Of a stretch of DNA of 64,000 nt, positions 6,094-29,090 are shown piece by piece. The notes under the pieces are model-generated. The model made no database searches, was not told the origin of the DNA, and saw only the letters and a program-made list of their open reading frames with translations. The DNA lies in the NCBI GenBank assembly GCA_003058525.1, contig QBVD01000055.1:1-64000 (forward strand), given 5' to 3'. Within the stretch, counting starts at the first letter, position 1, and each line of letters starts with the position of its first letter. Made by a program: the position numbers and the translations under genes. Origin of the DNA: a gamma proteobacterium symbiont of Ctena orbiculata. Lineage in GTDB: Bacteria; Pseudomonadota; Gammaproteobacteria; Chromatiales; Chromatiaceae.

Positions 6094-6109
6094 TGGCACA
6101 CAAGTTGCT
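6094..6109 (+). promoter_or_regulatory. Sigma-54 promoter of xoxF
   Basis: TGGCACACAAGTTGCT matches the -24/-12 consensus TGGCAC-N5-TTGCW at every specified base, with GG and GC exactly 12 bp apart. Transcription would start near 6120 and leave a leader of about 190 nt before the xoxF ATG. The partner activator is probably the AcoR-like protein at 27132-29090. Confidence 0.8.
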
Positions 6110-6312
6110 CTTTTGTGTTTGTCGCTCTGAAAGACTGCCTGTAATCGTGCGACAGGATCGTTCTAAATGTACCAAATGTGAGGAGTCTATCGATAGCGAG
6201 GGAGAAGCTGAACCGACAAATTTCGATTTTATCCGGTCTCTATCCGGTCTCTAAATCGATTAATTTTACCTTGTAGAGGCAGTCCCACAAATAAAACCCG
6301 AGGATACATACT

Positions 6313-8115
6313 ATGGTAAAAGCAAAACGCAAAGTTCTGGCGATATGCTTCACTGCCTCTGCAATGCTCAGCGCTGCAGGTGGAGTGACGGCAAATTCAG
6401 AACTGCTGAAAATGCAAAACAACCCAAACGACTGGGTAATGCCTAACGGCGATTATGCAGGTACCCGCTACAGCAAACTGGACCAAATCAACACGAGTAA
6501 CGTTAAGGACCTGAGGGTTGCCTGGACCTTCTCCACCGGCGTTCTTCGTGGTCATGAGGGCGGCCCCCTGGTACTCGGGGATGTTCTGTATATCCACAGT
6601 CCGTTTCCCAACAAGGTGTTTGCCCTTGACCTGAATGATGACGGCAGAATCCTCTGGAAGTATGAGCCGAGGCAGGACACCAGCGTTATTCCGGTTATGT
6701 GTTGCGATACCGTCAACCGCGGTCTGGCCTATGGCGACGGAAAGATCATTCTTTCACAAGCTGACACCACACTGGTGGCCCTGGATGCAAAGACCGGCAA
6801 GAAAATCTGGTCCGTGAAAAATGGCGACCCGTCCAAGGGCGAGACCTCCACTGCGGCTCCCATGGTGGTAAAAGACAAAGTCTTTATCGGTATCTCCGGT
6901 GGTGAGTTCGGTGTGCGTGGCTCCATGACCGCCTACAATCTCAAAGACGGCAAACTGGCATGGCGCGCCTACTCCATGGGACCGGATAGCGATACCCTTC
7001 TGGATCCTCAGAAGACTACCCATCTCGGTAAGCCGGTAGGAAAAGACTCCGGTATCAATACCTGGAAGGGTGACCAGTGGAAGATCGGTGGCGGTGCCAC
7101 CTGGGGCTGGTATTCCTATGATCCGGACCTGAACCTGATGTATTACGGTTCCGGTAACCCCAGCACATGGAATCCGGTTCAGCGTCCCGGTGATAACCGT
7201 TGGTCGATGACCATCTTCGCCCGTGACGTGGATACCGGCATTGCCAAGTGGGTCTACCAGATGACTCCGCATGACGAGTGGGACTATGATGGCATCAATG
7301 AAATGATCCTGGTCGACCAAAAGATCAAGGGCAAGATGCGCAAGGCCCTGGTCCACTTCGATCGTAACGGTTTCGGCTATACCATGGATCGCGCTAGCGG
7401 CGAACTGTTGGTTGCAGAGAAATTCGATCCTGCGGTCAACTGGGCGACCCATATCGACATGGACACCGGTCGTCCACAGGTCGTAGCCAAGTACTCCACT
7501 CATCAGAACGGTGAAGACGTCAACTCCACCGGTATCTGCCCGGCGGCTCTGGGAACGAAGGATCAGCAGCCCGCCAGCTACTCCCCGCGTACAGGACTCT
7601 TCTATGTACCGACCAACCATGTCTGCATGGACTACGAGCCGTTCCAGGTTTCGTATACCGCGGGTCAACCCTATGTGGGTGCAACCCTCTCCATGTACCC
7701 GGCGCCAGGCGGCACCCATCTGGGTAACTTCATCGCCTGGGATGCCGACAAGGGCAAGATCGTATGGTCCAACCCCGAGCCCTTCTCCGTATGGAGCGGC
7801 GCACTCTCCACGGCTGGTGACGTAGTCTTTTACGGCACTCTGGAGGGTTATCTGAAAGCGGTCGATGCCAAGACGGGTAAAGAGCTGTACAAGTTCAAGA
7901 CCCCCTCCGGCATCATCGGCAATGTCAATACCTACATGCACAACGGCAAGCAGTATGTCGCGGTCCTCTCCGGACTCGGTGGCTGGGCCGGTATCGGTAT
8001 GGCTGCAGGTTTGACCGACCCGACAGCCGGTCTGGGTGCTGTGGGTGCCTATGCATCGCTCAGCGACTATACCCAGCTGGGCGGCACACTGACTGTATTT
8101 GAACTGCCGAACTGA
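6313..8115 (+). CDS. xoxF: XoxF, lanthanide-dependent PQQ methanol dehydrogenase
   Basis: The 600-aa quinoprotein has a signal peptide (cleavage near residue 28). The adjacent-cysteine disulfide C130-C131 next to PQQ is present in [10 protein letters not shown]. The eight-blade propeller Trp-docking repeats are visible. In HDEWDYDG, Asp324 is the catalytic base and Asp326, two residues on, is the extra carboxylate that marks rare-earth-binding XoxF; calcium-type MxaF has Ala there. It oxidises methanol (and possibly formaldehyde) in the periplasm and passes electrons to the next gene's cytochrome c. No mxaI-like small subunit is present. A stem-loop follows the gene. The clade (XoxF1-5) cannot be fixed by eye. 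Confidence 0.96.
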
Positions 8116-8173: not shown

Positions 8174-8221
8174 AAATCCCGACATAGATACAACACCTAA
8201 CTGGTTTCCATGAGGCTAAAC

Positions 8222-8692
8222 ATGCAGCGTAACAAGTTAAGTAAATCCCTAATAGTGGCGACCATCGCCCTCACCTACTCCTTCTCGGGCTACTCAGCTG
8301 CATCCAAGGCCGATTACAAGAATTTTGTACCTTCACCTGAGCAACCCTACTACTTCGAAGACGGCAAGGTCGACTTCGGCACCTATAACGGTTTTCGTCG
8401 TTATCATGCCGACTGTCATGTCTGTCACGGACCGGCCGGCATGGGCAGTTCCTACGCACCGGCACTGCTCGAATCACTGAAAGTGATGTCCTATGGCGAT
8501 TTCGTCAATGCAGTCGTCACAGGAAGGGAAGGAATGAACAATAGCGTGATGCCCTCTTTCGCAAAGAACATAGATGTCATCAAGTATATTGCCGATATCT
8601 ATGCCTATCTAAAGGCTCGCTCAGACGGTGTCATCGGGATGAACAGACCCGCGAAGTTTCCAAAAGTCAAAAAACTGATCGCGGACAAATAG
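8222..8692 (+). CDS. xoxG: XoxG-like cytochrome c, electron acceptor of XoxF
   Basis: This is a small exported mono-haem cytochrome c of 156 aa from the chosen start. It has a signal peptide ending near residue 27 (SGYSAAS), haem-binding C65-H-V-C68-H69, and probable axial Met110 in NNSVMPSF. ATG 8222 is preferred over ATG 8210 because GAGG lies 6 nt upstream of it. The position directly after xoxF and the family (cytochrome cL / XoxG) indicate that it takes electrons from the methanol dehydrogenase in the periplasm. Confidence 0.9.
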   Translation: MQRNKLSKSLIVATIALTYSFSGYSAASKADYKNFVPSPEQPYYFEDGKVDFGTYNGFRRYHADCHVCHGPAGMGSSYAPALLESLKVMSYGDFVNAVVTGREGMNNSVMPSFAKNIDVIKYIADIYAYLKARSDGVIGMNRPAKFPKVKKLIADK

Positions 8693-8822
8693 ACAGGGAT
8701 TCGGATATATCCCATCACTGCGGAGTCAAGCATCAAATCTTGGGAACAGCAGCGGTGGGACCGATGTCCTACTATCTAACTATCTATCTGTCATATCATA
8801 TGAGCGATCGAGGACTAGCATA

Positions 8823-9677
8823 ATGCCGACAACAGGTTCGTCGTTTTGCAGCAAAGCATTGAGCCTGATTTTCTACCTCTTGCCACTCTTTCTGCTGCTG
8901 GCTCCACTGTCCGCCTGGTCTAAAACCACCTATGAAGCCAGGAACAAGGAGTATCTGACAGTCTGTGGCGATCCTAACCACATGCCCTTCTCGAATAAAA
9001 AGCTGGAGGGATTCGAAAACAGGATCGCCAAGCTCATCGCCGATGACCTGAACCGAACATTGCGTTATCACTGGTGGCCACAGACCATAGGCTTTGTGCG
9101 CAACACACTTAGTATTCGTCTTTGCGATCTGGTAATGGGTGTCACTTCGGTCAACGAACTGTTACAGAATACCAATCCCTATTATCGATCGGTCTATACC
9201 CTGGTATATCGAAAGGACTCAGGACTGGCTCTCCGCACCCTCGATGCCGCAAAGCTCAATGATCTCAAAATAGGTGTCGTCGCAGGTACGCCCCCGGCTA
9301 CCCTGTTGAGCAAATACGGCTTGCTGGATCAGGTCCGTCCCTATCAGCGTACTGTCGATACACGTCTTTACTCACCTGCCACCCGGGCTGTGGAAGACGT
9401 GGCGGATGGAACTATCGACGTCGCGGTGATCTGGGGTCCTATAGCCGGCTATGTGGCCTCCAGGCAGGAGACGCCACTCTCAGTGATTCCCCTGCCGGCA
9501 AAAGTGGACTCTGTTCCATTGGCTTTCAATGTCTCCATGGGCATCCGCCGTCGTGAATCGAATTGGAAACACCAGCTTAATCTTGAATTGGAAAAACTCT
9601 CTCCGAACATTGAGAAGATATTGCTTGAATACAACATACCTCTGCTGGATAGAGATGACAGACTGATACAACATTGA
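8823..9677 (+). CDS. xoxJ: XoxJ-like periplasmic binding protein
   Basis: The 284-aa exported protein has a type-2 solute-binding fold. The signal peptide covers about residues 1-37, followed by YLTVCGDPNHMPFSNKKLEGFE, typical of quinoprotein-dehydrogenase-associated binding proteins (MxaJ/XoxJ). Its family is always linked with PQQ alcohol dehydrogenases and is thought to help mature or activate the apo-enzyme rather than import a solute. Its stop overlaps the start of the next gene by 4 nt (TTGA). GAGG lies 9 nt before ATG 8823. Confidence 0.92.
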   Translation: MPTTGSSFCSKALSLIFYLLPLFLLLAPLSAWSKTTYEARNKEYLTVCGDPNHMPFSNKKLEGFENRIAKLIADDLNRTLRYHWWPQTIGFVRNTLSIRLCDLVMGVTSVNELLQNTNPYYRSVYTLVYRKDSGLALRTLDAAKLNDLKIGVVAGTPPATLLSKYGLLDQVRPYQRTVDTRLYSPATRAVEDVADGTIDVAVIWGPIAGYVASRQETPLSVIPLPAKVDSVPLAFNVSMGIRRRESNWKHQLNLELEKLSPNIEKILLEYNIPLLDRDDRLIQH

Positions 9678-10276
9678 AATCCGAAGTCACACAAAGAGCG
9701 CTTGCAAAGCCACTCCATGGTGTGGTGTCCGTTCTGCTGCTCGTCACGTCAATGACAGCTTACTCTTCCGGAGCCCTGCAAGAGAACCCCGAACACTTCT
9801 CAACCGACGGTTATCGCATAGCCGAATTTCGCGCCCCCGTACCGGACTCAGTCCCAGCTGGAATCACCATCACAACGCAGCAACTGCATACTCTGATCAA
9901 GCAACAGCATGTGGTGCTGATCGATGTGATGCCGACACCGGTCAAACCCAAGGACCGGCCTGACAACCTGTTATGGCTGCCACCTGCAAGGCAGAATATT
10001 CCAGATTCTCACTGGCTGCCCAATGTAGGCTATGGCGCCCTCTCCGATGAGTTGGATAGCTATTTCAAAAAACACCTGAAGCGGTTTTCCAACGGCGACA
10101 AAGGCACCCGGATAGTGCTCTATTGTCTTGCCGATTGCTGGATGTCTTGGAATGCCGCAAAACGGGCGGCAACAGAGTACGGCTACACCAACATCTACTG
10201 GTACCCGGACGGGACTACCGGATGGGAAGCGGCCGATCTGCCGCTTGAGAAAAGCGAAGCGATACCGATGCAGTGA
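9674..10276 (+). CDS. Rhodanese-fold PQQ-catabolism protein with C-x3-CW motif
   Basis: The 200-aa exported protein is predicted from a TTG start that overlaps the xoxJ stop. A later ATG would remove the N-terminal hydrophobic segment (VVSVLLLVTSMTAYSSG). It carries a rhodanese-like domain (LIDVMPTP near residue 85) and a YCLADCWMSWNAAKRA active loop. Here the two cysteines are separated by three residues, then Trp. This matches the 'PQQ-dependent catabolism-associated' rhodanese group. A thiol/sulfur or disulfide role in the periplasm beside XoxF is inferred. Confidence 0.85.
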   Translation: MKSEVTQRALAKPLHGVVSVLLLVTSMTAYSSGALQENPEHFSTDGYRIAEFRAPVPDSVPAGITITTQQLHTLIKQQHVVLIDVMPTPVKPKDRPDNLLWLPPARQNIPDSHWLPNVGYGALSDELDSYFKKHLKRFSNGDKGTRIVLYCLADCWMSWNAAKRAATEYGYTNIYWYPDGTTGWEAADLPLEKSEAIPMQ

Positions 10277-10280: not shown

Positions 10281-10895
10281 TCAGTCAAGATAGTATGCAA
10301 TGCTGCGGGCCAGTGAGCCAAGTCTCTCTTCAATCACCCTCGGACGGGTACAGAGGTGTTGAATGAAGTCTTCGCGTTCATCAAACATGCGCTGCTTGAT
10401 CTCCATCTCCTTCTGCATCAGTGCCAGGCGCTCCTGTGCGGCTTGTGAAGGATCCTCCTGCAACTGGACCATCTCATCGAGCTCATGACTCAACCTGTCG
10501 GCGCGTGCCGCTTGACCACGGGCATAGCGGATAATGCCATCGAGTTTTTTCTTGCGTTCCTCATTCAGTGTCTGAATAACGCCGGCAAACAGCAAAGTAA
10601 GCCTGGAATCCTTTTCTGAAGAATTCTGTTCAGCGGAAAATTCGGCAATATCCGCATCGACCGCATCCAGATCATAGTCCGACACAACGAACCGCTTTAC
10701 CAGCCTTGATACCTCTTCGTCCTGTTCCCAAGCATGCTCAAGTCCCGCTATCGATGGCCCGGCCCACACTACGGCCGCGGGTATCTCGTGTACTAACGCC
10801 TGCTCACAAGGCCAGTCGGGCGGTCTCTCTTCCGCACCCAAGGGTAGTGTAAGCGTGAAAACAAACAGCCACAGACAGTATCCAAACTTCTTCAT
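10281..10895 (-). CDS. Exported helical protein of unknown function in the PQQ island
   Basis: The 204-aa protein has a signal peptide (MKKFGYCLWLFVFTLTLPLGA). A mostly helical, charged body follows, with a likely coiled coil from about residue 110 to 190 (EERKKKLDGIIRYARGQAAR and following). A strong GAGGAG precedes the ATG. It lies at the 3' end of the ABC operon on the same strand, but separated from the permease gene by a repeat end. I do not recognise the family. Its position suggests a periplasmic accessory of the quinoprotein system. Confidence 0.75.
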   Translation of the reverse strand: MKKFGYCLWLFVFTLTLPLGAEERPPDWPCEQALVHEIPAAVVWAGPSIAGLEHAWEQDEEVSRLVKRFVVSDYDLDAVDADIAEFSAEQNSSEKDSRLTLLFAGVIQTLNEERKKKLDGIIRYARGQAARADRLSHELDEMVQLQEDPSQAAQERLALMQKEMEIKQRMFDEREDFIQHLCTRPRVIEERLGSLARSIAYYLD

Positions 10896-10920
10896 CTTTG
10901 AAAACTCCTCTTATGGCCGG

Positions 10921-10944
10921 TTGGCTTAGTGTTAACAGGCCCTA
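10921..10944 (-). repeat. Solo end of the GGGCCTGTTAACAC palindromic element
   Basis: TTAGTGTTAACAGGCCCTA at 10926-10944 is the terminal sequence of the MITE family seen complete at 29954 and 51763. Its last bases supply the TAG stop codon of the permease gene (CTA at 10942-10944). An insertion or excision of the element has therefore fixed the end of that protein. Confidence 0.75.
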
Positions 10945-11748
10945 ACCTCCGCCCTGTTTACGTGTCATCAGACCGCGTGCAGGATCGTATCCGTAGAGCG
11001 CCCCGGCAAGGAATAGCAGCAGAGAACCGACAACTGCAAAAAAGGCAATCCAGCTGGTCTGACCGTAAAGCGCAAATCTGGTCAATTCCACCGCATGGGT
11101 AAAGGGGTTAAAACGACAGATTTCATAAAGGAAAACGCTGGAATCCTTAATCCGCCACAAGGGATAGAGCGCTGACGATGCAAAAAACATGGGGAATATG
11201 ACAAAATTCATGACCCCGGCAAAATTCTCCAACTGCTTGATTGCGGAAGAGAGCAGCAAGCCCAATGCGCCGAGCATCAATCCCGACAGAAACAGGGCTG
11301 GAAACGCCAGAAGGTAACCCGTCAGCGGTGGCTGTACATCCCAAAACCAGGCGATAGCCAGAAAGAGGTAGACCTGGGCGATTGCGACCAGGGTGCCGGC
11401 GACCAGTTTGCAAAGCAGAAGATACCAGCGTGGAAAGGGACTGACCATCAACATCCGCATACTGCCCATCTCCCGGTCGTACACCATGGAGAGCGAACTC
11501 TGCATACCGCTGAAAAGCAGGATCATCGCCGCCAACCCGGGGACGATGTACTCCTCATAGAGGATATAGGTTTCATAGGGTGGAATGATGGAGACACCCA
11601 ATACGGAACGGAAGCCGGCGGCGAAGATGAACAGCCATACCAGGGGACGAACCAGGGCGCCGAAAAATCGCTCGCGTTGGTGAAGAAACCGCAGCGATTC
11701 ACGTAGCGTGATTCCCAACAGACAACGAAGATACTGCACAAAGGTCAT
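10942..11748 (-). CDS. ABC-2 type permease, PQQ-dependent catabolism type
   Basis: The 268-aa membrane protein has six predicted hydrophobic segments (for example PLVWLFIFAAGF, AMILLFSGMQSS, FVIFPMFFASSALYPLW, FFAVVGSLLLFLAGALYGY) and the ABC-2 pattern. It pairs with the ATP-binding protein at 11745-12482, overlapping by 4 nt. Family members always accompany PQQ alcohol dehydrogenases; the transported substrate is not known. The C-terminus (MTRKQGGG) ends in a repeat terminus and may have been altered by it. Confidence 0.9.
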   Translation of the reverse strand: MTFVQYLRCLLGITLRESLRFLHQRERFFGALVRPLVWLFIFAAGFRSVLGVSIIPPYETYILYEEYIVPGLAAMILLFSGMQSSLSMVYDREMGSMRMLMVSPFPRWYLLLCKLVAGTLVAIAQVYLFLAIAWFWDVQPPLTGYLLAFPALFLSGLMLGALGLLLSSAIKQLENFAGVMNFVIFPMFFASSALYPLWRIKDSSVFLYEICRFNPFTHAVELTRFALYGQTSWIAFFAVVGSLLLFLAGALYGYDPARGLMTRKQGGG

Positions 11749-12482
11749 GATGCATCACTTCGTGTCAGGCTGTTGAATGCCTGTTTTACACTATCCGTTC
11801 CGGTCTCCTGCATGATCTGGCGGGCGCTGCCATGGGCAAGCACCTTGCCGTCGTGCAGCACTACCAGGCGATCTTCAGTCTCGACTTCATCCACCAGATG
11901 CGTAGCCCACAGCACACCGATACCGTCCTCGCGGCAACGTTTACGCACCTGCTGCAGGATCGCCTGGCGGCTGTGGATATCGAGCCCTACGGTCGGTTCA
12001 TCGGCCAGTAGTAGACGGGGCTGATGCAGAAGCGCCCTGACCAGCTCAACACGGCGACGCTGACCGCCGCTCAGCGCCCTCACCTTATCATCGGCACGGT
12101 CTCCCAACTCGATTTCATCCAATACTGTCTGCATGCGTGTTTTTAATTCACCAATATCCAATCCCTGTAAGGCGCAGTGATAGCGAAGGTTCTGCATCAA
12201 TGACAGATCCAGATCCAATGTCGGTTGCTGAAACACAACCCCCAATTGCGCCAATGCCTTGCGGGTCTGGCTATGAAGGTCGTAACCGTAGATGTCGATC
12301 GCGCCGCCGCGACTGACAAACAGCCGGGTGATAAGAGAAAAGAGGGTTGTCTTGCCGGCACCGTTGATCCCCAGCAGGACACAGAACTCGCCTGGTTCCA
12401 GTGTAAAGCTGACATCATCCAACACCTGGCGCTTGGTATAGGAAAAGCTGACACCTTTCAATGCGAGAGCGGCTGCACTCAT
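11745..12482 (-). CDS. ABC transporter ATP-binding protein, PQQ-dependent catabolism type
   Basis: The 245-aa ATPase has all core motifs: Walker A GINGAGKTT (about residues 38-46), Q-loop VVFQQPTLD, signature LSGGQRRR, Walker B RLLLADEP and switch H in LWATHLVDE. It overlaps the permease gene by 4 nt and the beta-propeller gene by 4 nt, so the genes form a tight operon. It energises the permease; the substrate is unknown. Confidence 0.94.
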   Translation of the reverse strand: MSAAALALKGVSFSYTKRQVLDDVSFTLEPGEFCVLLGINGAGKTTLFSLITRLFVSRGGAIDIYGYDLHSQTRKALAQLGVVFQQPTLDLDLSLMQNLRYHCALQGLDIGELKTRMQTVLDEIELGDRADDKVRALSGGQRRRVELVRALLHQPRLLLADEPTVGLDIHSRQAILQQVRKRCREDGIGVLWATHLVDEVETEDRLVVLHDGKVLAHGSARQIMQETGTDSVKQAFNSLTRSDAS

Positions 12483-13480
12483 GGACGAACCACAACCCCC
12501 CAGGGCAGACGCCCCACCCTGATCGACTTTCTCACCTTCAAGCGGTCGACATCTATGACCGAGATATCGTTACTCACCCCGTTGGTGGTGAAGATGCGCT
12601 TTTCATCCGGCGAGAAATCGAGGTTCCAAACCCGCTGGCCAACCAGAAGATACTTCTCCACCTCGAAAGAGGAGGTATCGATCACAGCCACCCTTGCGGC
12701 CGGCCCCAGGGCGACAAATGCCTGCTTGCCGTCCTTGCTGATTTTTATACCCACGGGCTGGATGGATTCTTTATGAATACCGGGTATCTTGAAACCGATC
12801 TTCTTGACGATCTTGCGACTCGCCGTATCGATCACACTCACCGTACCGCCGATCTCCGATGAGACCCATACCTGCTTGCCATCATGGGTGAACTGGGCCA
12901 CGCGTGGCCGCTGATCGACCAGTACGTTATCTTCCACCTTCAACGTCTCAAGGTTGATGAAGTGGGCCATGTTGGTGGTTTCGGATGTGTTGACCAGCCA
13001 CTTTCCGTCGGGGCTGATTCCCATCCCCTCCGGTTCCACACCTACCTGGATCTCCGTCACCTTCTCCCGCTTCTGTACGTCAACCATGGTCACCATGTTG
13101 TCGTCCTCGTTGGCGGCATACAGATATTTACCCTGTGGCCCAAGTACCAGCAGTTCCGGGTCGGGACCGGACGGCAATATATGGGTGACCTTGAGGCTTT
13201 CCAGATCCAGCACTTCAATGTGATCGGCATCGCTGGTGCAAACGTAAAGGGTTTTGCCATCGTTGCTGAGGGCAATACCCCGTGGACGCTCGCCTACTTT
13301 TACCGTCTCCAGGACCTTGAGACTCTCTCCATCGATTATCGTGATTGTGTTGTCCTTCTCGCTGCTAACGTAAATAGTGTAGGCTTGCGCCCCGCTGCTG
13401 ACTATCATGGAGATGGTAAACACCAATCCATACAATGAGTGGCGGACGCCTGGATTGCAGCGGGAAAATGAAAAAAGCAT
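12479..13480 (-). CDS. YVTN beta-propeller protein, PQQ-associated
   Basis: The 333-aa exported protein has a signal peptide up to about residue 33 (SSGAQA). About seven repeats follow in which a YVS/YVC/YAANEDDNMV-type strand is followed by DxxSLKV and LPSGPDPELLVLGP turns. Such YVTN propellers regularly flank XoxF genes with the ABC pair. GGAGG lies 8 nt before the ATG. Ligand and partner are unknown; a periplasmic scaffold or binding role is likely. Confidence 0.9.
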   Translation of the reverse strand: MLFSFSRCNPGVRHSLYGLVFTISMIVSSGAQAYTIYVSSEKDNTITIIDGESLKVLETVKVGERPRGIALSNDGKTLYVCTSDADHIEVLDLESLKVTHILPSGPDPELLVLGPQGKYLYAANEDDNMVTMVDVQKREKVTEIQVGVEPEGMGISPDGKWLVNTSETTNMAHFINLETLKVEDNVLVDQRPRVAQFTHDGKQVWVSSEIGGTVSVIDTASRKIVKKIGFKIPGIHKESIQPVGIKISKDGKQAFVALGPAARVAVIDTSSFEVEKYLLVGQRVWNLDFSPDEKRIFTTNGVSNDISVIDVDRLKVRKSIRVGRLPWGVVVRP

Positions 13481-13543
13481 TTACTACTCCTCCGTTTTTA
13501 TCGCTTACGAATTACAGCCGAACCGCAATTTATCTATCAGGGG

Positions 13544-14770
13544 CTACTTGCCGCATTTACTCTCCGGACGATCGTAGCCAAGGGTATCCAGAGTGGAATA
13601 CTGATGTAGAAAACCCTTCTGCGGCGAGACGGATATCATCAACCGTGGAGAGGTGATCAACAGCGGTTGGCGCAACTGACCGTTCCAATCCCGATAGGTC
13701 ACCGGTCTGCCCTTAAAAGCGGCCAGATTGAATTCATCACTGAGGATGAAGGCCTTCAGCTTGTCCGCCTGTTTGCCGGCAGTGCGTGTCGCTGCCTCAC
13801 CGATACTGCGTACTGCCACCCAGGCTGAAAAATCGCGATCGGTCATCCAGCGGCCATTCTTTTCCTGGTAGCGCCGTTGAAACTGGGTTGCTCCCCACTG
13901 TTCGTGTACGCCGCTCCAGGCAGCCGGGGAGAGCCCGTGAGAACCGCCAACCGGCCGCGGAAGATAGGTACGGTAGTTTAAAAACTCACCGAACTCATCC
14001 CGTTCATCAGCCACGATCAGGATGTCGTAATCCCCTACCTGGGTGAATGCATTCACCTCTTCCTGTTCTCGGGTGTGTCCCGAATCGGTACGCCTTGCGC
14101 CGGGTTCGAAGGTCCATACTTTCTCTTCGACAATCTTGTGGCCATATCGTTTGGCCGCCCGCTTGAGGGCGTCCGCATAGGCCTTGTCCTGCGGATGGCG
14201 GCCCACTACGAGAAACCACTCGTTCCAACGTTTCCAGGTCAGATACTGGGCCAAGGCATCCGCCAGCATGGCTCGGCTGGGGATGCTATGAAGCAGGTTG
14301 GCTCGGCATTCATGGGTTCTCAGTGCATCATCCCTGGCGCCGATATTAAACAGCAGGCTATCCTTCGCTTCGGGCATATCCGCGATTTCAATCAGCTTGT
14401 CCGCGGGCAGATTGAGGAGGAACAGCCTGGTGCCCTGCCGATGCAATTCCAGGAAGGCCTGATTCGGACTTTGTTCAGGCTTGACCTTCATCGACGTGAG
14501 TTGAAATGACTGTCCGGTAAACTGCCCGGTGGTGTTGTTATCGCTAATGCCCTGCTCGGCCCCCGACTGGCCGGTGTCGTCAATAACCGGTCTCAACAAT
14601 GACAACGGTATGTGTTTCTCCTGTTCCATTCCCAGCAGAGCGATGGATACATCGAGTTTGTCTGCAGCACAGGCGATGCCGAAGCAATACAACCCGCTGA
14701 ATATGATCATGAGGCCAACAGATAATCGATAGGGAGGCTTTTTCTTATTGTATGGATCCAATCTACTCAA
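13544..14770 (-). CDS. Branched-chain-type substrate-binding protein, PQQ-associated
   Basis: The 408-aa exported protein is first in the ABC operon. The N-terminal signal/anchor is LSVGLMIIFSGLYCFGIACA. The periplasmic-binding fold of the Leu/Ile/Val type follows (LFLLNLPADKLIEIADMP, WNEWFLVVGRHPQDKAYADA). It begins at a TTG with GGAG 6 nt upstream; no better start exists before the signal segment. A sigma-54-type promoter lies 48-63 bp upstream. Family members (PQQ ABC binding) are tied to PQQ alcohol dehydrogenases. The ligand is not known. Confidence 0.88.
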   Translation of the reverse strand: MSRLDPYNKKKPPYRLSVGLMIIFSGLYCFGIACAADKLDVSIALLGMEQEKHIPLSLLRPVIDDTGQSGAEQGISDNNTTGQFTGQSFQLTSMKVKPEQSPNQAFLELHRQGTRLFLLNLPADKLIEIADMPEAKDSLLFNIGARDDALRTHECRANLLHSIPSRAMLADALAQYLTWKRWNEWFLVVGRHPQDKAYADALKRAAKRYGHKIVEEKVWTFEPGARRTDSGHTREQEEVNAFTQVGDYDILIVADERDEFGEFLNYRTYLPRPVGGSHGLSPAAWSGVHEQWGATQFQRRYQEKNGRWMTDRDFSAWVAVRSIGEAATRTAGKQADKLKAFILSDEFNLAAFKGRPVTYRDWNGQLRQPLLITSPRLMISVSPQKGFLHQYSTLDTLGYDRPESKCGK

Positions 14771-14817: not shown

Positions 14818-14833
14818 TGCAAGTTCCATACCA
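14818..14833 (-). promoter_or_regulatory. Sigma-54-like promoter of the ABC/beta-propeller operon
   Basis: Read on the minus strand, TGGTATGGAACTTGCA has the invariant GG and GC at proper spacing and a full TTGCA -12 box. The -24 box is TGGTAT instead of TGGCAC. Transcription would start near 14806, 36 nt before the TTG start. The palindrome at 14908 lies 75 bp upstream, a usual enhancer distance. Confidence 0.6.
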
Positions 14834-19517: not shown

Positions 19518-20585
19518 CTACTCCCACTCCAATTCAGCAAACACAGCCGTCACATTCCTGCCGTGGAACTCATTGAACAACAGCCAGTTGTCCTTTTCCT
19601 CCCGGCCCACGCTTTCCACCGCCTGGGTGATGGTTCCACCCTTTTTAATGATCGTTCGGATGTCTGCCGCGATAATCTCCAGATAACGTTGCTGAGCGGC
19701 CAAAGCACTCTGCCATTGGGCTGTAACAGACCCGTGCCCCGGGACGATACGTTTCACCTTTCCACATTGCCCCTTAACCTCAGTCTCAATGGCCGTTGAA
19801 CGGTTCTTCACATCATCTGAGGAAACGGCAACGCAGGCCTGCTTGCTGAGTTTTTGGATAACCTTCAACCATCCCAACAGGCTGCCATCCACTACCGGCA
19901 CACGCTCTACAAAAAGCAGATCCGAGAGCCACAATGTCCCGGTTTTGTCATCATAGACACTTAAATCGTTATTCGTATGCGCCGTCGGATAGGCCTGCAA
20001 ATGGAGAGATCTGCCACCAAGGTCCAGTCGCTTCACCTGATCGACGCTGACACCCTGGGACGGAAACACCATTTGTGTGCCTTCCGCAATGTCTCCGAGA
20101 ATCTGTTTCATTCGATTCAGATAGGTTGACTGCCGCCTCGCCAGGGCATCTCCCAGGTGTTCATGACCGATAAAGACAGGATCATCCTGTCTGAAGGCAG
20201 CGGCACCGAGGGTATGATCGGGATGCATATGGGTAAGGATCACATACCCGATAGGCAGTTGGGTGATTTCACGGATCATCTTGCGTAACGCCAATCCTTC
20301 CCGGTAACTGCTGCCGGTATCGATCACCGCCACACGCTCACTACCCACAATAAATCCTGTATTGGCGATATGCCCATGATTGTGTGTGGAAAACTCTTCT
20401 TGAATTCCCGGCCAGACATAGATGCCAGGGGCGATTTCCCTGGCATCGGCAGTCCGGGCCTGAAGTCCGTCCATGCTCAGAAACAGCACGATGCCGACAG
20501 TTACGACACGAAGACACTGGATAACCTGTAAACTGAGTATCTCCTGTGTCATACAGGCCTGTCTTAAACTGGAGATCACTCGCAT
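19518..20585 (-). CDS. Quinoprotein relay-type metallo-beta-lactamase-fold hydrolase (SoxH-related)
   Basis: The 355-aa exported protein has leader LRVVTVGIVLFLSMDGLQA. The metallo-beta-lactamase zinc motif HMHPDHTLGAA lies near residue 120, followed by further metal ligands (TAHTNNDLSVY and VPGHGSV). This pattern fits the SoxH-related hydrolases always found beside PQQ methanol/alcohol dehydrogenases and SoxYZ-like carriers. It probably cleaves the group carried on the SoxY-like cysteine at 18392. AGAGG lies 5 nt before the ATG. Confidence 0.9.
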   Translation of the reverse strand: MRVISSLRQACMTQEILSLQVIQCLRVVTVGIVLFLSMDGLQARTADAREIAPGIYVWPGIQEEFSTHNHGHIANTGFIVGSERVAVIDTGSSYREGLALRKMIREITQLPIGYVILTHMHPDHTLGAAAFRQDDPVFIGHEHLGDALARRQSTYLNRMKQILGDIAEGTQMVFPSQGVSVDQVKRLDLGGRSLHLQAYPTAHTNNDLSVYDDKTGTLWLSDLLFVERVPVVDGSLLGWLKVIQKLSKQACVAVSSDDVKNRSTAIETEVKGQCGKVKRIVPGHGSVTAQWQSALAAQQRYLEIIAADIRTIIKKGGTITQAVESVGREEKDNWLLFNEFHGRNVTAVFAELEWE

Positions 20586-20769: not shown

Positions 20770-20785
20770 TGGCACATGATTTGCA
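20770..20785 (+). promoter_or_regulatory. Sigma-54 promoter of the formate dehydrogenase operon
   Basis: TGGCACATGATTTGCA matches TGGCAC-N5-TTGCW at all specified bases. Transcription would begin near 20797, about 50 nt before the TTG start of fdsGB. Confidence 0.8.
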
Positions 20786-20847: not shown

Positions 20848-22557
20848 TTGTCATCAGTAGAAGTAAAGACAGACAAACGACGACGTGGCCGCGGCAAAGG
20901 CCGTCGCGTGAAAGCGAGCATATTGGCTGAAGTGCGTGAACTGCTGGGAGAGGAAGCCCCACGCCGCCCTGATCTGTTGATCGAAATGTTGCACCGTATT
21001 CAAGACCACCTGGGATACATTTCAGTGGATCACCTGGCGGCACTTGCACAGGAGATGAGCCTATCCAGTGCCCAGGTCTATGAGGTGGCCAGTTTCTATC
21101 ACCATTTCGATCTGGTTAAGGAGAACCAAACGCCACCGCCATTGACGGTTCGGGTCTGTGATTCCATCTCTTGCAGCCTGGCCGGGGCTGAAGATTTGAT
21201 TAACAACCTGCAGGCAAGCCTGGGTAGTGGTGTTCGGGTGCAACGGGTGCCGTGTGTCGGTCGTTGTCAGGAAGCACCCGTTGCCGTGGTGAGGAAACAA
21301 CCGGTACCCCAGGCCGATGCAGTTAAAGTGAAAAGACTGCTGAATACGGCCGACAGCGAACCCGAGTTGCCCGACTATTTGGACTACAAAGGGTATCTGG
21401 GTGGCGGCGGTTACGCTCTGTTGCAACGCATGGAAACAGATGAGCGCGATGATCGACACCCCCATCGGCTGTCACCCGAGCAGGTAATTCAGTGCTTGGA
21501 AGACTCGAATCTCAAAGGTCTGGGCGGAGCGGGATTCCCTGCCGGTCGCAAATGGCGCATTCTGCGTGAACAACCGGCACCCCGCCTGCTGGCGGTGAAC
21601 ATCGACGAAGGTGAACCCGGCACATTTAAGGATCGGTACTATCTGGAACGAGATCCACACCGTTTTCTGGAAGGGGCGCTTATCGCTGCCCGGGTGGTCG
21701 GTATCAGTGAAATCTATATCTATCTGCGCGATGAGTACACCGCCATTCGCAGCATGCTTGAGTGTGAGTTGTCGGCCTTGCGGTCTGACCCTCCCTGTCC
21801 GCTGCCGCCCATCCATCTGCGCCGGGGAGCCGGTGCCTATATCTGTGGCGAGGAGTCGGCGATGATCGAGTCGATCGAGGGCAAACGCGGTATGCCCCGT
21901 CAACGTCCCCCCTACGTAGCCCAGGTCGGACTCTTCGGTCGTCCTACCCTGGAGCACAATATGGAAACCCTCTACTGGGTACGCGAACTGCTTGAACGGG
22001 GCGCTGACTGGTTCACCAAACAGGGCCGCAATGGCCGCCATGGCCTGCGCAGTTTTTCGGTCAGCGGCCGGATCAACAAACCCGGTGTCCATCTGGCCCC
22101 CGCGGGTATAACAATGCACGAACTCATCGATGAGTATTGCGGCGGTATGCAGCAAGGGCATGAGCTCTACGCATACTTCCCCGGTGGTGCATCCGGCGGT
22201 ATCCTGCCCGCCTCGATGGCCGACATTCCACTCGATTTCGATACCTTGCAGCCCTATGGCTGTTTCATCGGCTCAGCCGCCATCATCGTCCTCTCACAAC
22301 ACGATAGCGCCCGGGAGGCGGCGCTCAACGCGATGCGTTTCTTCGCTCACGAATCCTGCGGCCAATGTACCCCCTGCCGGGTCGGCACCGAAAAGGCTGT
22401 AACCCTGATGGAGCGGCAGCATTGGGATCGGGATCTGCTCAAAGAACTCGCCGGCGTGATGATCGATGCATCCATCTGCGGATTGGGACAGGCTGCGCCC
22501 AACCCGATGCTGAGCGTACTGAAATATTTTCCACAGGAGCTGGAACATGACGCGTGA
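20848..22557 (+). CDS. fdsGB: NAD-dependent formate dehydrogenase, fused FdsG-FdsB subunit
   Basis: The 569-aa protein joins two normally separate subunits. Residues 1-150 form a NuoE-like 2Fe-2S domain (C104, C109, C136, C140). Residues 180-569 form the NuoF-like FMN/NAD subunit with GLGGAGFPAGRKW at 224-236, GEESAMIESIEGKRG, and 4Fe-4S ligands C504, C507, C510, C544. It passes electrons from FdsA to NAD in the cytoplasm. It starts at TTG behind GAAGGGA. Its Arg/Lys-rich first 20 residues are unusual. It overlaps fdsA by 11 bp. Confidence 0.94.
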   Translation: MSSVEVKTDKRRRGRGKGRRVKASILAEVRELLGEEAPRRPDLLIEMLHRIQDHLGYISVDHLAALAQEMSLSSAQVYEVASFYHHFDLVKENQTPPPLTVRVCDSISCSLAGAEDLINNLQASLGSGVRVQRVPCVGRCQEAPVAVVRKQPVPQADAVKVKRLLNTADSEPELPDYLDYKGYLGGGGYALLQRMETDERDDRHPHRLSPEQVIQCLEDSNLKGLGGAGFPAGRKWRILREQPAPRLLAVNIDEGEPGTFKDRYYLERDPHRFLEGALIAARVVGISEIYIYLRDEYTAIRSMLECELSALRSDPPCPLPPIHLRRGAGAYICGEESAMIESIEGKRGMPRQRPPYVAQVGLFGRPTLEHNMETLYWVRELLERGADWFTKQGRNGRHGLRSFSVSGRINKPGVHLAPAGITMHELIDEYCGGMQQGHELYAYFPGGASGGILPASMADIPLDFDTLQPYGCFIGSAAIIVLSQHDSAREAALNAMRFFAHESCGQCTPCRVGTEKAVTLMERQHWDRDLLKELAGVMIDASICGLGQAAPNPMLSVLKYFPQELEHDA

Positions 22558-25300
22558 GCCTCAGCCATTCCCACAACGCATCAGTTTCACGCTGGACGGC
22601 AGGCCACTCAGCGCCGAGCCGGGAGAGACCCTGCTCCAGGCAGCTAAACGGGCCGGCATCGATATCCCCCATCTCTGTTACAAGGATGGCCTGCGCCCCG
22701 ACGGCAACTGCCGTGCCTGCGTGGTGGAGATCGAGGGTGAACGTGCCCTGGCTGCCGCCTGTTGCCGTACACCGAGTGAGGGAATGGTGGTCAAAAGCCA
22801 GGATGAGCGACCGCGCAATGCGCAACGGTTGGTGTTGGAACTGCTCCAGTCCGATATGGCAGAAACCCGACACACCCACCGCAATGAACTCGATCACTGG
22901 TGGCAGAAAATGGAGCTGGGCAGGCCCCGTTTTCCTGTCCGCCAACAACCGGCAGCGGACCTCTCACATCCCGCCATTGCGGTGAACCTGGATGCCTGCA
23001 TCCAATGCACCCGCTGTCTGCGCGCCTGTCGCGAGGAGCAGGTCAACAATGTGATCGGTTATGCCCGTCGAGGCGCCGCCTCGACTATCGTATTCGACGC
23101 CGGAGACAACCTGGGCGAGAGCAGCTGTGTGGCCTGCGGTGAATGTGTGCAGGCCTGTCCCACGGGCGCCCTGATGCCTGCCAACGGCAACGGTTCGGCG
23201 CATGCCGATATCGAGAAGCAGGTCGATTCGGTCTGTCCCTATTGCGGAGTCGGCTGCCAGCTCACCTATCACGTAAGTGACAACCGCATACGCTATGTCA
23301 CCGGACGTGACGGGCCGGCCAACAACAGCCGCCTGTGTGTCAAAGGACGCTATGGTTTGGACTATACCCACCATAAGCACCGTCTTACAGTACCGCTGAT
23401 TCGTCTTGATGACGCCCCTAAACAGGCCGAGCTGGGACTCGATCATGACAACCCCTTTGTCGGATTCCGTGAAGCGAGCTGGGATGAGGCACTGGCATTC
23501 GCCGCCGGCGGCCTGCGTAATTTGCGGGATGAACAGGGGCCCACAGCGTTGGCCGGCTTCGGCTCCGCCAAGGGTTCAAACGAGGAAGCCTATCTTTTTC
23601 AAAAGCTGGTCCGTACCGGTTTCGGCAGTAACAATGTGGATCACTGCACACGTCTTTGTCACGCATCTTCCGTGGTCGCGTTGCTGGAGATGATCGGTTC
23701 AGGCGCGGTCTCCAATCCGGTGGCGGATGTGGACAAAGCCGAACTGATCCTGATCATCGGTTCCAATACCACCGAGAACCATCCGGTGGCGGCCACATTC
23801 ATCAAGAACCAGGTGAACGCAGGCAAGACCCTGATCGTGATGGATCCCCGACGCACCACCATCGCGGGACACGCCACACACTTCCTCCAGTTCAAGCCCG
23901 ATACCGACGTCGCACTGCTCAATGCCATCATGCATGCGGTCATCGAGCAGGGATTGGTTGATAAGGAATTCGTCCACAATCGCACCAGCGGTTATGAGAT
24001 ATTGGAAGAGCACCTGAGCTCCTTCACCCCGCAGGCCATGGAGCATGTCTGCGGCATCGATGCCGGCACCATCCGTGAGGTGGCGCGCCTGTATGCTTCG
24101 TCCAAGGCATCCATCATCTTCTGGGGCATGGGAGTCTCCCAGCACGTACACGGTACCGACAATGCCCGCGCCCTCATATCCCTGGCCCTGATGACGGGCC
24201 AGATCGGTCGTCCGGGTACCGGACTGCATCCGCTACGCGGACAGAACAATGTACAAGGCGCCTCCGACGTTGGACTCATACCCATGGTCTTTCCCGACTA
24301 CCAGCGGGTGGACAACCCGGCGAATCGGGCAAAGTTCGAAGCCCTGTGGGGAACCACCCTGGACCCGAAACCGGGCCTCACTGTGGTTGAGATTATGCAT
24401 GCAATCACCGATGGTACGATCAGGGGCATGTATATCATGGGTGAAAATCCCGCCATGTCGGACCCCAATCTAAACCATGCACGCAAGGCACTGGCCAGTC
24501 TGCAACACCTGGTAGTGCAAGACATATTCATGACCGAGACCGCCTGGTACGCAGACGTCATTCTTCCCGCTACAGCCTTCGCCGAGAAGACAGGCAGCTT
24601 CACCAATACCGACCGGCGGGTACAGCTGGGGCGTCAAGCGATAGATCCACCAGGTCAGGCCCGAAAGGACCTGGAAATCATCCAGGAGATGGCCCGCAGG
24701 TTAGATCTTGACTGGCACTATAGCCATCCCAGGGAGGTCTTTGCCGAGATGCGTCAAGCGATGCCCAGTATTGCCGGCATCTCTTGGGAGCGCCTGGAGC
24801 AGGAGGGCGCCGTGACCTACCCCTGTGAAGATGAAGATGATCCTGGACAACCGGTGATATTCACTGAGATATTTCCCACTCCCTCAGGCAAGGCAAGCTT
24901 CACACCCGCACCCTTCACCAACGCCGATGAACTGCCGGACCGGGAGTATCCCTGGGTATTGATCACCGGCCGTCAACTGGAACACTGGCATACCGGAGCC
25001 ATGACCCGGCGCGCAGCGGTGCTCGACACGATTGAACCGATCCCGGTCGCCAGTCTGCATCCGGAGGAACTCGCACGTATGGATATCGAGCCCGGCGGCC
25101 CCATCAGGTTGCAATCGAGGCGTGGCGAGGTGATCGCGTTCGCCCGTGCCGATGAGGGCATATCTCCCGGCCAGGTATTCCTCCCCTTTTGCTACCATGA
25201 AGCAGCGGCCAACCTGTTGACCAATGAAGCGCTGGATCCGGCTGCCAAGATACCTGAATTCAAGTTCTGCGCGATCAAGGTAATGCCCGCTTCGGATTAA
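22547..25300 (+). CDS. fdsA: NAD-dependent formate dehydrogenase catalytic subunit FdsA
   Basis: The 917-aa molybdenum/tungsten enzyme has an N-terminal 2Fe-2S domain (C44, C55, C58, C72/73). Two 4Fe-4S segments follow (CIQCTRCLRAC at 151-161, CVACGECVQACPTGA at 194-208). The formate-dehydrogenase 4Fe-4S cluster uses C230, C233, C237 and C264. The metal ligand is Cys371 followed by His372 (HCTRLCHASS), so it is a cysteine rather than selenocysteine enzyme. It oxidises formate to CO2 and completes methanol oxidation. No fdsC/fdhD or fdsD follows within the window. Confidence 0.96.
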   Translation: MTREPQPFPQRISFTLDGRPLSAEPGETLLQAAKRAGIDIPHLCYKDGLRPDGNCRACVVEIEGERALAAACCRTPSEGMVVKSQDERPRNAQRLVLELLQSDMAETRHTHRNELDHWWQKMELGRPRFPVRQQPAADLSHPAIAVNLDACIQCTRCLRACREEQVNNVIGYARRGAASTIVFDAGDNLGESSCVACGECVQACPTGALMPANGNGSAHADIEKQVDSVCPYCGVGCQLTYHVSDNRIRYVTGRDGPANNSRLCVKGRYGLDYTHHKHRLTVPLIRLDDAPKQAELGLDHDNPFVGFREASWDEALAFAAGGLRNLRDEQGPTALAGFGSAKGSNEEAYLFQKLVRTGFGSNNVDHCTRLCHASSVVALLEMIGSGAVSNPVADVDKAELILIIGSNTTENHPVAATFIKNQVNAGKTLIVMDPRRTTIAGHATHFLQFKPDTDVALLNAIMHAVIEQGLVDKEFVHNRTSGYEILEEHLSSFTPQAMEHVCGIDAGTIREVARLYASSKASIIFWGMGVSQHVHGTDNARALISLALMTGQIGRPGTGLHPLRGQNNVQGASDVGLIPMVFPDYQRVDNPANRAKFEALWGTTLDPKPGLTVVEIMHAITDGTIRGMYIMGENPAMSDPNLNHARKALASLQHLVVQDIFMTETAWYADVILPATAFAEKTGSFTNTDRRVQLGRQAIDPPGQARKDLEIIQEMARRLDLDWHYSHPREVFAEMRQAMPSIAGISWERLEQEGAVTYPCEDEDDPGQPVIFTEIFPTPSGKASFTPAPFTNADELPDREYPWVLITGRQLEHWHTGAMTRRAAVLDTIEPIPVASLHPEELARMDIEPGGPIRLQSRRGEVIAFARADEGISPGQVFLPFCYHEAAANLLTNEALDPAAKIPEFKFCAIKVMPASD

Positions 25301-26948: not shown

Positions 26949-27131
26949 AGAGTTATCTTGAAATTCACTACGGATTGCGATTTGTCAATCTAACGATATT
27001 GACATAAACTCTAGTTGATTAAGTAATTAACATTGATCGGATTTATTCCGTCACTCACCCCCTGACATAATAACTACAGCGAGAGGTCACGGAAGCTTTC
27101 TCCATCGGGGCCTGTTTGCGACCAGAGGTAG

Positions 27132-29090
27132 ATGAAGGTGGACAGAATTATCCTGCACAACGAATTTTCAAATCATGAAGAGTTCGTGCGTGCTGCGCTC
27201 GACAACAGCCACATCATTCACTCCTCCGAAATAGACGACCTGACACTCAGATCCTGGAGGCGTTGCCGGGACGAATACGGACTCGATCCCGGCATGTCGC
27301 CCGAACCGGTCATTATCGATCGTCAGGATTTGCGCGATCGTCTGCAAAGATATGAACGCCTGCTGGACATTGCCCGGGTGGAGATGACCGATCTCTACCA
27401 GCAGTTGGCCGGATCCGGGCATGCCATCATGCTCACTGACAGAGACGGTATCCTGCTCAATTTCATCGGTGATCCCCAATTTACCGATGCAGCCGCACAC
27501 GCCGGCATGCAACTGGGTGCAGTCTGGAGCGAATCGGTTCAGGGCACCAATGGCATGGGTACCTGTCTCGTGGAACAGAAACCCCTTGTCATTCACAAGC
27601 AATCCCATTTCTTCTCACGTAACGCCAGCCTGACCTGCGCGGCAGCACCCATCTTCGATCCCCACGGAGAGATCCTGGCGGTACTCGATGCCTCCAGTGA
27701 ATCCAAGATGGCCCAGCAACACACCATGGTATTGCTGAACATGTCGGCCCAGATGATCGAGAACCGGGTCTTCTTCTGTGCCATGAAAGAGGCCTTCGTG
27801 CTTCGTTTTCATTCCCGTTCGGAATTCATCAGCACACTTGGCGAGGGAGCCATCGCCTTCGACAGGGACGGCAAGATTGAGGCCATCAATCGCAGTGCCA
27901 TGTTTCAACTCAATCTGGAGTCGCCCCAACAGATAGTCGGACACCCTATTCAGCAACTCTTCACGACTTCCCTGGGCACCCTTCTCAGAAATGTGCATTC
28001 CCATGCCTTCCCTATACGGGAATCGCAACATGGCAAACGTTTCTTCGCCACTCTGCAGGCACCTGAGAAAAGCTGCAGAAGCAACACAACTCCATCCGAC
28101 GCAGTCAATGTGCTTGGCGAGAATGACTACCTGGGAAGCACCGACTCCCTCGATGCCCTGCACTTTGATGAACCGCGCATGAAGCGCAATGTGAAAACGG
28201 CCTTAAAGCTGGTCGAAAGAGATGTCCCCTGCATGCTCTTCGGTGAGACCGGTACCGGTAAGGAGATGTTCGCGCGCGCATTGCATAAAGCGAGTTCTCG
28301 CCATGAAAAACCGTTTGTCGCTGTGAATTGCGCATCGCTGCCGGAATCGCTGATCGAGAGTGAGCTTTTTGGTTACCGACCTGGCGCATTTACCGGGGCA
28401 AATCGTGACGGTAGCCGGGGCAAGATTGTTCAGGCAGACGGAGGCACACTGTTTTTGGATGAGATTGGCGATATGCCGCTGCATCTTCAGGCACGCCTGC
28501 TTAGGGTGCTCGAAGAGCGAGAGGTTACCCCCCTTGGCGGGGAAAAGCCTATCAAGGTCTCCATCAAACTGATCAGTGCCACTCACCATGACATCAAAGG
28601 CATGGTTGAGGATGGCGATTTCCGCGAAGATCTGTTCTATCGGCTGCATGGCGTTTCTTTGACCATGCCCCCACTGCGGGAACGCACGGACAGGCTGCAG
28701 TTGATCAAGAACATAGCCCAGCTGGAAGCTGGCGTTTCAGAGGTGTTAACCTGGGATCCTGAAGCACTCAAACTGCTTGAGAACTTCCCATGGCCCGGCA
28801 ATATCCGACAGCTGCGCAATGTGCTTCGGACCTCTACGGCGCTGTGCGAAAACAATATAGTAACGATTAACGATCTGCCTGAGGAAATTCGCAATATTGT
28901 CTATGATGACGAGTTTTCCGATGGACCTGATGCCAATCTCAATGCACTGGCGATTGCTGAACGTGACGCACTGTTGAGTGAACTCGAAGAGATGCATTGG
29001 AATATCAGCAGGGTTGCCAAAAAGCTCGCACTCAGCCGCAATACGCTCTACAGGCGTATGAAGCGTTTTGGGATTTCACCACCTCGTTGA
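27132..29090 (+). CDS. Sigma-54 activator with GAF domain (AcoR-like), probable regulator of the methanol island
   Basis: The 652-aa protein has an N-terminal region and GAF sensor (about 70-220) and a middle PAS-like part (about 230-310). The AAA+ domain shows Walker A GETGTGKE near 370, GAFTGA at 418-423 and Walker B GGTLFLDEIGDM. It ends in a Fis-type helix-turn-helix (WNISRVAKKLALSRNTLYRR). It opens sigma-54 promoters on binding an unknown C1 or alcohol signal. Unlike response regulators it has no receiver domain. Four sigma-54-like promoters precede the operons to its left, so it is the likely activator of xoxF and fds. It is divergent from folP. Confidence 0.9.
   Translation: MKVDRIILHNEFSNHEEFVRAALDNSHIIHSSEIDDLTLRSWRRCRDEYGLDPGMSPEPVIIDRQDLRDRLQRYERLLDIARVEMTDLYQQLAGSGHAIMLTDRDGILLNFIGDPQFTDAAAHAGMQLGAVWSESVQGTNGMGTCLVEQKPLVIHKQSHFFSRNASLTCAAAPIFDPHGEILAVLDASSESKMAQQHTMVLLNMSAQMIENRVFFCAMKEAFVLRFHSRSEFISTLGEGAIAFDRDGKIEAINRSAMFQLNLESPQQIVGHPIQQLFTTSLGTLLRNVHSHAFPIRESQHGKRFFATLQAPEKSCRSNTTPSDAVNVLGENDYLGSTDSLDALHFDEPRMKRNVKTALKLVERDVPCMLFGETGTGKEMFARALHKASSRHEKPFVAVNCASLPESLIESELFGYRPGAFTGANRDGSRGKIVQADGGTLFLDEIGDMPLHLQARLLRVLEEREVTPLGGEKPIKVSIKLISATHHDIKGMVEDGDFREDLFYRLHGVSLTMPPLRERTDRLQLIKNIAQLEAGVSEVLTWDPEALKLLENFPWPGNIRQLRNVLRTSTALCENNIVTINDLPEEIRNIVYDDEFSDGPDANLNALAIAERDALLSELEEMHWNISRVAKKLALSRNTLYRRMKRFGISPPR

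Follow-up and report, generated by a model that had tools for sequence, protein, structure and literature searches.

Genes for pyrroloquinoline quinone (PQQ)-dependent methanol and alcohol dehydrogenases, among them xoxF/mxaF and pedE/pedH, are regulated by two-component and lanthanide-switch systems such as MxbDM, MxcQE, MxaY and PedS2/R2, according to the available text of PMC11845868, where the regulation of XoxF is also described as likely species-specific and in need of further study. Another type of control operates in Azospirillum brasilense Sp7, where exaA, a PQQ alcohol dehydrogenase gene, is under sigma-54; in the sections of PMC6115532 at hand this concerns one gene, not encoding XoxF, and not a whole one-carbon (C1) pathway. 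In Candidatus Thiodiazotropha, xoxF, fdhAB, soxYZ-S4, pqq and tetrahydromethanopterin (H4MPT) genes form a methanol cluster with seasonal expression, for which co-regulation has been suggested, with no promoter or regulator named in the parts of these papers that were available (PMC11237559, PMC8307296, PMC12172469). The present analysis deals with a methanol/formate gene island in a 64-kb window (the whole stretch of DNA analysed, positions 1 to 64,000 of contig QBVD01000055.1), whose host is probably a sulfur-oxidising symbiont of a clam; its gene set and nif genes, together with published synteny (PMC11237559, PMC8307296), make it very likely that it belongs to Candidatus Thiodiazotropha. 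The main methanol-to-CO2 operons of this organism quite probably constitute one sigma-54 regulon under an AcoR/DhaR-like activator, for which the protein encoded at 27132..29090 on the plus strand is the likeliest candidate.

Four sigma-54 boxes, matching the -24/-12 pattern TGGCAC-N5-TTGCW exactly or nearly so, precede the principal operons of the island. The first, TGGCACACAAGTTGCT (6094..6109, plus strand), is an exact match located 219 bp 5' of the start codon of xoxF, at the head of a xoxF-xoxG-xoxJ-like operon. The second exact match, TGGCACATGATTTGCA (20770..20785, plus strand), lies before the fdsGB-fdsA formate dehydrogenase operon. Two further boxes with two mismatches each face away from one another: TGGTATGGAACTTGCA (14833..14818, minus strand) precedes an operon for a PQQ-linked binding protein, a beta-propeller protein and an ABC transporter (14770 to 10281), and AGGCATGATATTTGCT (15117..15132, plus strand) precedes an operon for SRPBCC (MxaD-like) and beta-propeller proteins. 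All four have GG and GC 10 bases apart, and the mismatches of the 14833 and 15117 boxes fall outside these dinucleotides. The initial annotation had proposed these two exact and two near-exact sites, and a pattern scan recovered each at the position given, with both exact matches in front of C1 genes.

The expectation in that annotation of about 0.1 exact matches per window by chance agrees with 100 dinucleotide shuffles, which gave a mean of 0.14, and no shuffle reached the two that are present. Matches with at most two mismatches number 43 against 36.7 expected, and 19 of the 100 shuffles gave as many or more; since this count alone is not significant, the 14833 and 15117 sites depend on their position and conservation. 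A stricter scan, which required GG and GC, allowed two mismatches at most and accepted sites up to 350 bp before a gene in the analyst's gene list, left five boxes in the 4,062 intergenic bases of the island, one in the 10,364 intergenic bases elsewhere in the window and none with the reversed-pattern control. A weak site that the initial annotation does not mention, TGGCTCACTTCTTGCG (29227..29242, plus strand, two mismatches), lies upstream of a flavoprotein gene (29380-29925). It has counterparts in genomes G002, G004 and G006 and is unaligned in G007, G008 and G011; as these last three do not retain it, the site is not counted among the main evidence.

Across the whole genome from which the window comes (4.74 Mb, 112 contigs), there are seven exact matches, and all seven are upstream of an ORF on the same strand, which makes an exact match a good sign of a sigma-54 promoter in this genome. 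Four of them precede xoxF, fdsGB, nifH and nifV; a fifth lies between the gene for a PBP-superfamily protein, which it precedes, and one for a sigma-54 response regulator; the last two belong to a ferredoxin-type operon and, with less certainty, to nifU. Gene context is weak for two of the seven: the box at C27:670 lies about 400 bp before nifU with an opposite-strand ORF intervening, and the box on C91 precedes a 132-aa ORF without a Pfam family and a ferredoxin-type gene. Sites with at most one mismatch number 164, compared with 110 for the reversed pattern. The sigma factor itself is represented by a single rpoN match (PF00309, 67.4 bits).

Conservation in relatives, which the initial annotation had named as a check, was assessed in 22 genomes of the genus, 12 of which carry xoxF at 85% identity or more. 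Genome G005, of the same species as the window, was kept out of the genus alignments, palindrome counts and core-conservation ranks. The four boxes are retained in the genus genomes aligned. The ten core positions of the xoxF box are invariant in 11/11 genomes and rank first of 405 upstream windows, while the fdsGB box has 0-1 mismatch in 9/9 genomes and ranks first of 285 windows; this comparison excludes G016, in which the region is not on the contigs compared, and in G009 the fds gene is truncated by a contig end. Separate inspection of the fds locus of G020, whose row in that alignment was empty, found a box with one mismatch. The 14833 and 15117 boxes each have 1-3 mismatches in 10/10 aligned genomes, a set without G020, which has no divergent operons near xoxF; they rank first and fifth of 476 windows, respectively. 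Beyond the genus, neither the xoxF box nor the fds box of G142 has a mismatch, the xoxF box of G068 has one, and so does a box of the 15117 type before the mxaD-like gene of G044. That the boxes are chance matches, conserved through close kinship or overlapping elements, is scarcely credible in view of these comparisons: the window has no significant excess of two-mismatch sites and the genus genomes share ancestry, but the intergenic regions that bear the boxes have diverged, with conservation averaging 0.56-0.66 against 0.90-1.00 for the box cores, where 0.90 reflects one empty alignment row, and another genus retains the exact pattern at two operons.

The boxes extend beyond the window to the H4MPT branch of C1 oxidation. 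In the complete genome G005, H4MPT genes lie upstream of xoxF, with fhcB about 11 kb away. A divergent region there carries AGGCATGCAAATTGCA before an operon for ribofuranosylaminobenzene phosphate (RFAP) synthase, mtd (identified from the G011 copy), an ATP-grasp protein and mch, and TGGCACGTTTTCTGCA before the fhc operon. Both boxes are found with at most two mismatches in 12/12 genomes, a count in which the window genome and G005 stand for one species. In G005 the first box falls 36 bp inside the longest RFAP synthase ORF and the second 8 bp inside the fhcB ORF. Homology begins at about residue 45 of RFAP synthase and about residue 40 of fhcB (residue 21 or later in 9/12 genomes), well inside the ORFs, so the true starts of both genes are taken to lie downstream of the boxes. 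As a separate observation, the RFAP synthase-fhcB intergenic region (L266; in the window genome on C44, 450 bp before 39255) contains a block running from GTGTCAC through CTGCCCCAG to ACAGT that is nearly unchanged in 12/12 genomes, G005 among them.

AcoR and DhaR are regulators of acetoin and glycerol metabolism. The protein encoded at 27132 has Pfam GAF, PAS_4, AAA+ and Fis-type HTH domains, a layout which we take to be that of AcoR and DhaR, and carries a Walker A motif (GETGTGKE), a GAFTGA motif and a C-terminal HTH, as an enhancer-binding protein does. The gene calls of the initial annotation (methanol dehydrogenase, formate dehydrogenase and sigma-54 activator) are borne out by family and PDB matches. 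Its label "AcoR type" fits the domain layout of the activator, while no NCBIfam cut-off is passed; the best family, DhaR (NF008485), scores 324.7 of 551 bits. The protein is thus best described, from its layout, as a putative AcoR/DhaR-type activator and is not filed as DhaR. It shares the GAF and PAS input, the AAA+ domain with GAFTGA and the Fis-type HTH with AcoR/DhaR activators, and differs from them in falling below the NCBIfam cut-offs and in its apparent tie to methanol, formate and H4MPT genes. The locus also differs from the two-component systems in that the activator is an orphan, with no two-component gene among 20 proteins scanned with Pfam.

The distribution of this activator follows that of xoxF. 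Counted at E <= 1e-100, with 44% paralogues excluded, it occurs in 12/12 genus genomes with xoxF and in 0/10 without; two of the latter, G003 and G021, have the 44% paralogue. In a sample of 147 genomes of the order, again without the 44%-type paralogues, it is found in 15/15 genomes with xoxF and in 10/132 without. It lies directly past fdsA and folP in the eight genus genomes that have these on one contig, and also in G020 and G142. Phylogenetically, it groups with sequences from G142, G068, G063, G062, G145 and G121 (support 100/99), with a less well supported sister group (89/83) formed by G044, G099, G056, G128, G069, G141, G129 and the 56% paralogues of the genus. Outside the genus, the genes around it were compared in 10 of 13 genomes (G062, G069 and G129 were left out, and G068 is covered by a 4-kb contig only); H4MPT-synthesis genes stand beside the activator in 8/10 of these loci, in G121 by one gene only. 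Additionally, a sigma-54-like box with at most two mismatches lies within 260 bp past the activator stop codon in 7/9 loci, a set that includes G020 of the genus and leaves out G063 and G068. These neighbours and the box past the stop codon point to an old link between the activator and H4MPT-bound C1 oxidation. In G012, G016 and G020 the sequence past the stop codon reads TGGCACG(T/C)TGAATGCT (L115:7960 and L117:4797, both minus strand). The H4MPT-synthesis operon comes next after this box in G020 and is located elsewhere in the species of the window.

Another possibility is that the sigma-54 promoters are real and are opened by one or more other activators, such as the paralogues on C30 or C86 or a nitrogen- or redox-type regulator, with the 27132 protein mainly serving H4MPT-synthesis genes. 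The window genome does encode further sigma-54 activators, including two paralogues at 56% and 42%, the latter beside a second PQQ alcohol dehydrogenase, and the activator is also present in ten genomes of the order that have no xoxF, in addition to its H4MPT neighbours outside the genus. This explanation is nevertheless unlikely, as the 27132-type activator comes and goes with xoxF within the genus and sits just past fdsA and folP, whereas the C30-type paralogue also occurs in genomes without this xoxF (G003, G021). At the C30 locus (L112, G000:C30:1-14000), the second PQQ alcohol dehydrogenase gene, whose product is 41% identical to XoxF, lies near the 42% AcoR-like activator, a PedF cytochrome and a metallohydrolase, and TGGCCTGATTCTTGCT is found 34 bp 5' of the dehydrogenase gene, with a similar site in G003. 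The pairing of dehydrogenase and sigma-54 activator is thereby repeated at this locus.

For the favoured activator, that at 27132, a candidate enhancer, or upstream activating sequence (UAS), can be pointed to. The palindrome GTGTCA-N4-TGACAC at 14908..14923 is placed where an enhancer would be, between the divergent 14833 and 15117 boxes, 75 bp and about 195 bp away. All 12 arm bases are kept in 10/10 genus genomes with the region, as well as in G142, and the window genome holds only two exact sites of this type, including this one. A related palindrome, GTGTCAC-N4-GTGACAC (5577..5594), is found some 500 bp upstream of the xoxF box and is a candidate distal UAS of that gene; it has 0-1 arm mismatches in 11/11 genus genomes and exact arms in G044. 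In G012, G016 and G020 it still accompanies xoxF, although the stretches compared in these three genomes revealed no divergent hydrolase gene. A role of this palindrome in serving the divergent hydrolase gene (4445-5410) was considered and rejected, because that gene has no kept sigma-54 box, a site with two or three mismatches being present in 3/8 genomes.

Published field transcriptomes fit the proposed regulon. In two clades of Candidatus Thiodiazotropha, mxaD, MJ1427 (RFAP synthase), mtd, fdhA and xoxG are higher in the non-upwelling season (Table 1 of PMC12172469). The ratios between non-upwelling and upwelling seasons, computed here from its median transcripts per million, are 16.5-17.4 for mxaD, 10.7-13.5 for MJ1427, 7.4-8.2 for mtd, 1.9-2.7 for fdhA and 1.1-3.7 for xoxG. 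By annotation, each of these gene names maps to an operon behind a conserved box, and potential co-regulation of methanol genes is proposed in the same paper; its text gives mch among the five methanol genes where its Table 1 gives mtd.

These data also bear on the view that xoxF and its neighbours are transcribed mainly by sigma-70 or another factor in response to a lanthanide or two-component signal, with the sigma-54 boxes as secondary starts. Transcripts of xoxG change only 1.1-3.7-fold, those of methanol dehydrogenase rank with the most abundant in either season in the material available from PMC12172469, and two-component systems are implicated in other methylotrophs in the available text of PMC11845868. 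A conserved inverted repeat in the xoxF leader, described below, could also be the target of a repressor or have a role in the leader. Such an arrangement is nonetheless very improbable, given that a consensus scan of 5400-6330 on the plus strand revealed no sigma-70-like site and that no window upstream of xoxF is better conserved than the sigma-54 box.

The repeat in question, TGTCGC...GCGACA (6120-6154), lies directly past the predicted xoxF transcription start in 11/11 genus genomes, and its inner sequence GACTGCCTGT is invariant. It could be a repressor site or a leader element. No repeat of this type was seen directly after the box in G142, G068 and G044, and its TGTCGC/GCGACA arms were absent within 600 bp before xoxF in the best 80 other loci listed. 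An RNA switch in the leader was considered and set aside, as folding is no better than that of shuffled sequences (z -0.83; 42 of 200 as good) and an Rfam scan of 5400-30000 gave no match there; the only hit, at 25673, was a sub-threshold one to a human long non-coding RNA family (20.6 of 40 bits).

Under the sigma-54 model, RpoN polymerase would sit at the conserved -24/-12 boxes of xoxF, the PQQ-linked transporter operon, the mxaD-like operon and fdsGBA and, outside the window, at those of the RFAP synthase-mtd-mch and fhc operons. The complex would remain closed until the AcoR/DhaR-like activator, docked at GTGTCA-N4-TGACAC-like sites, opens it by means of its AAA+ ATPase, and a C1 compound or C1-linked metabolite may switch the activator on through its GAF/PAS input. 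From the boxes and their conservation, the palindromes, the activator domains and the co-occurrence, all of which are seen in the sequence, we infer promoter activity, the pairing of activator and promoters, and the signal. A wider proposal, towards which we lean with some reserve, is that this one orphan AcoR-type activator is the master C1 regulator of the lineage, which would sense a C1 compound or an H4MPT-linked metabolite, open at least six sigma-54 promoters covering most of the route from methanol to CO2, and replace the two-component lanthanide switch; ancestrally it may have governed the H4MPT branch and later been extended to xoxF and fds.

Several observations weigh against the sigma-54 model, in addition to the paralogues and the occurrence of the activator without xoxF. 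In the filtered window scan, the metallohydrolase/SoxYZ-like genes, folP and the activator gene proved to have no box with two or fewer mismatches upstream. The 15117 box is present in G002 though the mxaD-like and beta-propeller genes are absent, the xoxF box of G044 is poor (TGGCACGGTTGCTGCC), and relatives share ancestry, so that conservation counts are not independent. The genus alignment shows no clear palindrome at fdsGB, the RFAP/fhc block holds one half-site of the 14908 palindrome only, and the 5577 palindrome has its GTGTCA/TGACAC arms two bases wider apart than the 14908 one, besides its distance of about 500 bp from the box; it may be the site of another regulator. Window genes and those of PMC12172469, as far as its available text goes, are linked by annotation and synteny only, with the host genus inferred. 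The model draws on sequence and published expression; transcription from the boxes and binding of the activator are predicted. The idea of a single sigma-54 regulon, put forward in the initial annotation, thus holds for the main operons, for which conservation and the co-occurrence of activator and xoxF give strong support and published expression fits; it does not cover the whole island, part of which is without boxes, the 27132 protein is its probable activator, and the regulon would extend outside to the H4MPT operons.

Control of this kind appears to be a trait of the lineage rather than general to XoxF, as boxes are few and the activator is missing at xoxF loci elsewhere. Among the best 80 named xoxF loci listed from outside the genus, only two have a box with at most one mismatch within 500 bp (L133 from Thiodictyon and L169 from Methylocella tundrae), and the activator is found at 0/80 (3.9-21.9 kb each, 51/80 of at least 20 kb), with xoxF recovered as a control at 80/80. 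The available part of PMC11845868 includes a map of a xox gene cluster whose legend lists a GAF sigma-54 regulator, so such a neighbourhood has been depicted before. Mapping of transcription starts in a methanotroph is reported to place RpoN sites at nitrogen genes, with an RpoD motif prevailing at methane and carbon genes, according to the sections available from PMC12403871. The literature searched, in which subscription journals were thinly covered, yielded no account of xoxF being controlled by sigma-54 or of a regulon for the entire path from methanol to CO2, and none is contained in the available text of PMC11237559, PMC8307296, PMC12997753, PMC6115532, PMC5874634, PMC11845868, PMC12403871 and PMC12172469. 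Sigma-54 regulons, AcoR-type activators and one sigma-54 PQQ alcohol dehydrogenase are already known, and what would be new is such control for the XoxF pathway.

The genes of the island were called from best matches in Pfam, NCBIfam and the PDB. The product of the gene at 6313..8115 (plus strand) is XoxF, a lanthanide-type methanol dehydrogenase, as judged from its sequence: it matches TIGR03075 (PQQ methanol/ethanol dehydrogenase family) above the cut-off, its nearest solved structures are XoxF proteins, and its HDEWDYDG segment corresponds to HDEWDYAG in the large subunit of the methanol dehydrogenase 4tqo. The second Asp of this DYD motif is present, which we take to be a mark of XoxF, and lanthanide dependence is predicted. 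Genes for a c-type cytochrome (xoxG-like; 145.2 against an NCBIfam cut-off of 161.75, and so below it), a MoxJ-like binding protein (xoxJ-like) and a PQQ CXXCW protein follow at 8210..10276 (plus strand; NCBIfam). The minus-strand operon at 10281..14770 encodes the PQQ-linked binding protein, the beta-propeller protein, an ABC ATPase, a PedC-like permease and one ORF without a family, and the SRPBCC (MxaD-like) and beta-propeller proteins (PF10604, TIGR02276) are encoded at 15258..16743 (plus strand), the start at 15258 being the analyst's choice within a longer ORF. A SoxYZ-like carrier and a quinoprotein-relay metallohydrolase (TIGR04557, TIGR04559) occupy 18392..20585 on the minus strand, and the fused fdsG-fdsB-like and fdsA-like formate dehydrogenase genes (TIGR01591 above cut-off) occupy 20848..25300 on the plus strand. 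Gene order is mostly retained across the 11 regions compared, those of G009 and G016 being interrupted by contig ends; the exceptions are G020, which has no middle part, and G002, which has no mxaD-like and second beta-propeller genes. The ORFs at 10281-10895 and 17251-17940 are syntenic and without a Pfam family, with 54-92% and 57-92% identity, respectively, in the relatives that have them.

For the biology of these probable animal symbionts, the proposed regulon would provide a testable wiring, with one activator, six promoters and one candidate enhancer. It would also supply a mechanistic basis for the change between sulfide and methanol use with season that is reported from the field in the available parts of PMC12172469, and a C1-responsive activator may be useful as a biosensor part. 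The shared type of switch suggests that the methanol pathway may be turned on as one unit.

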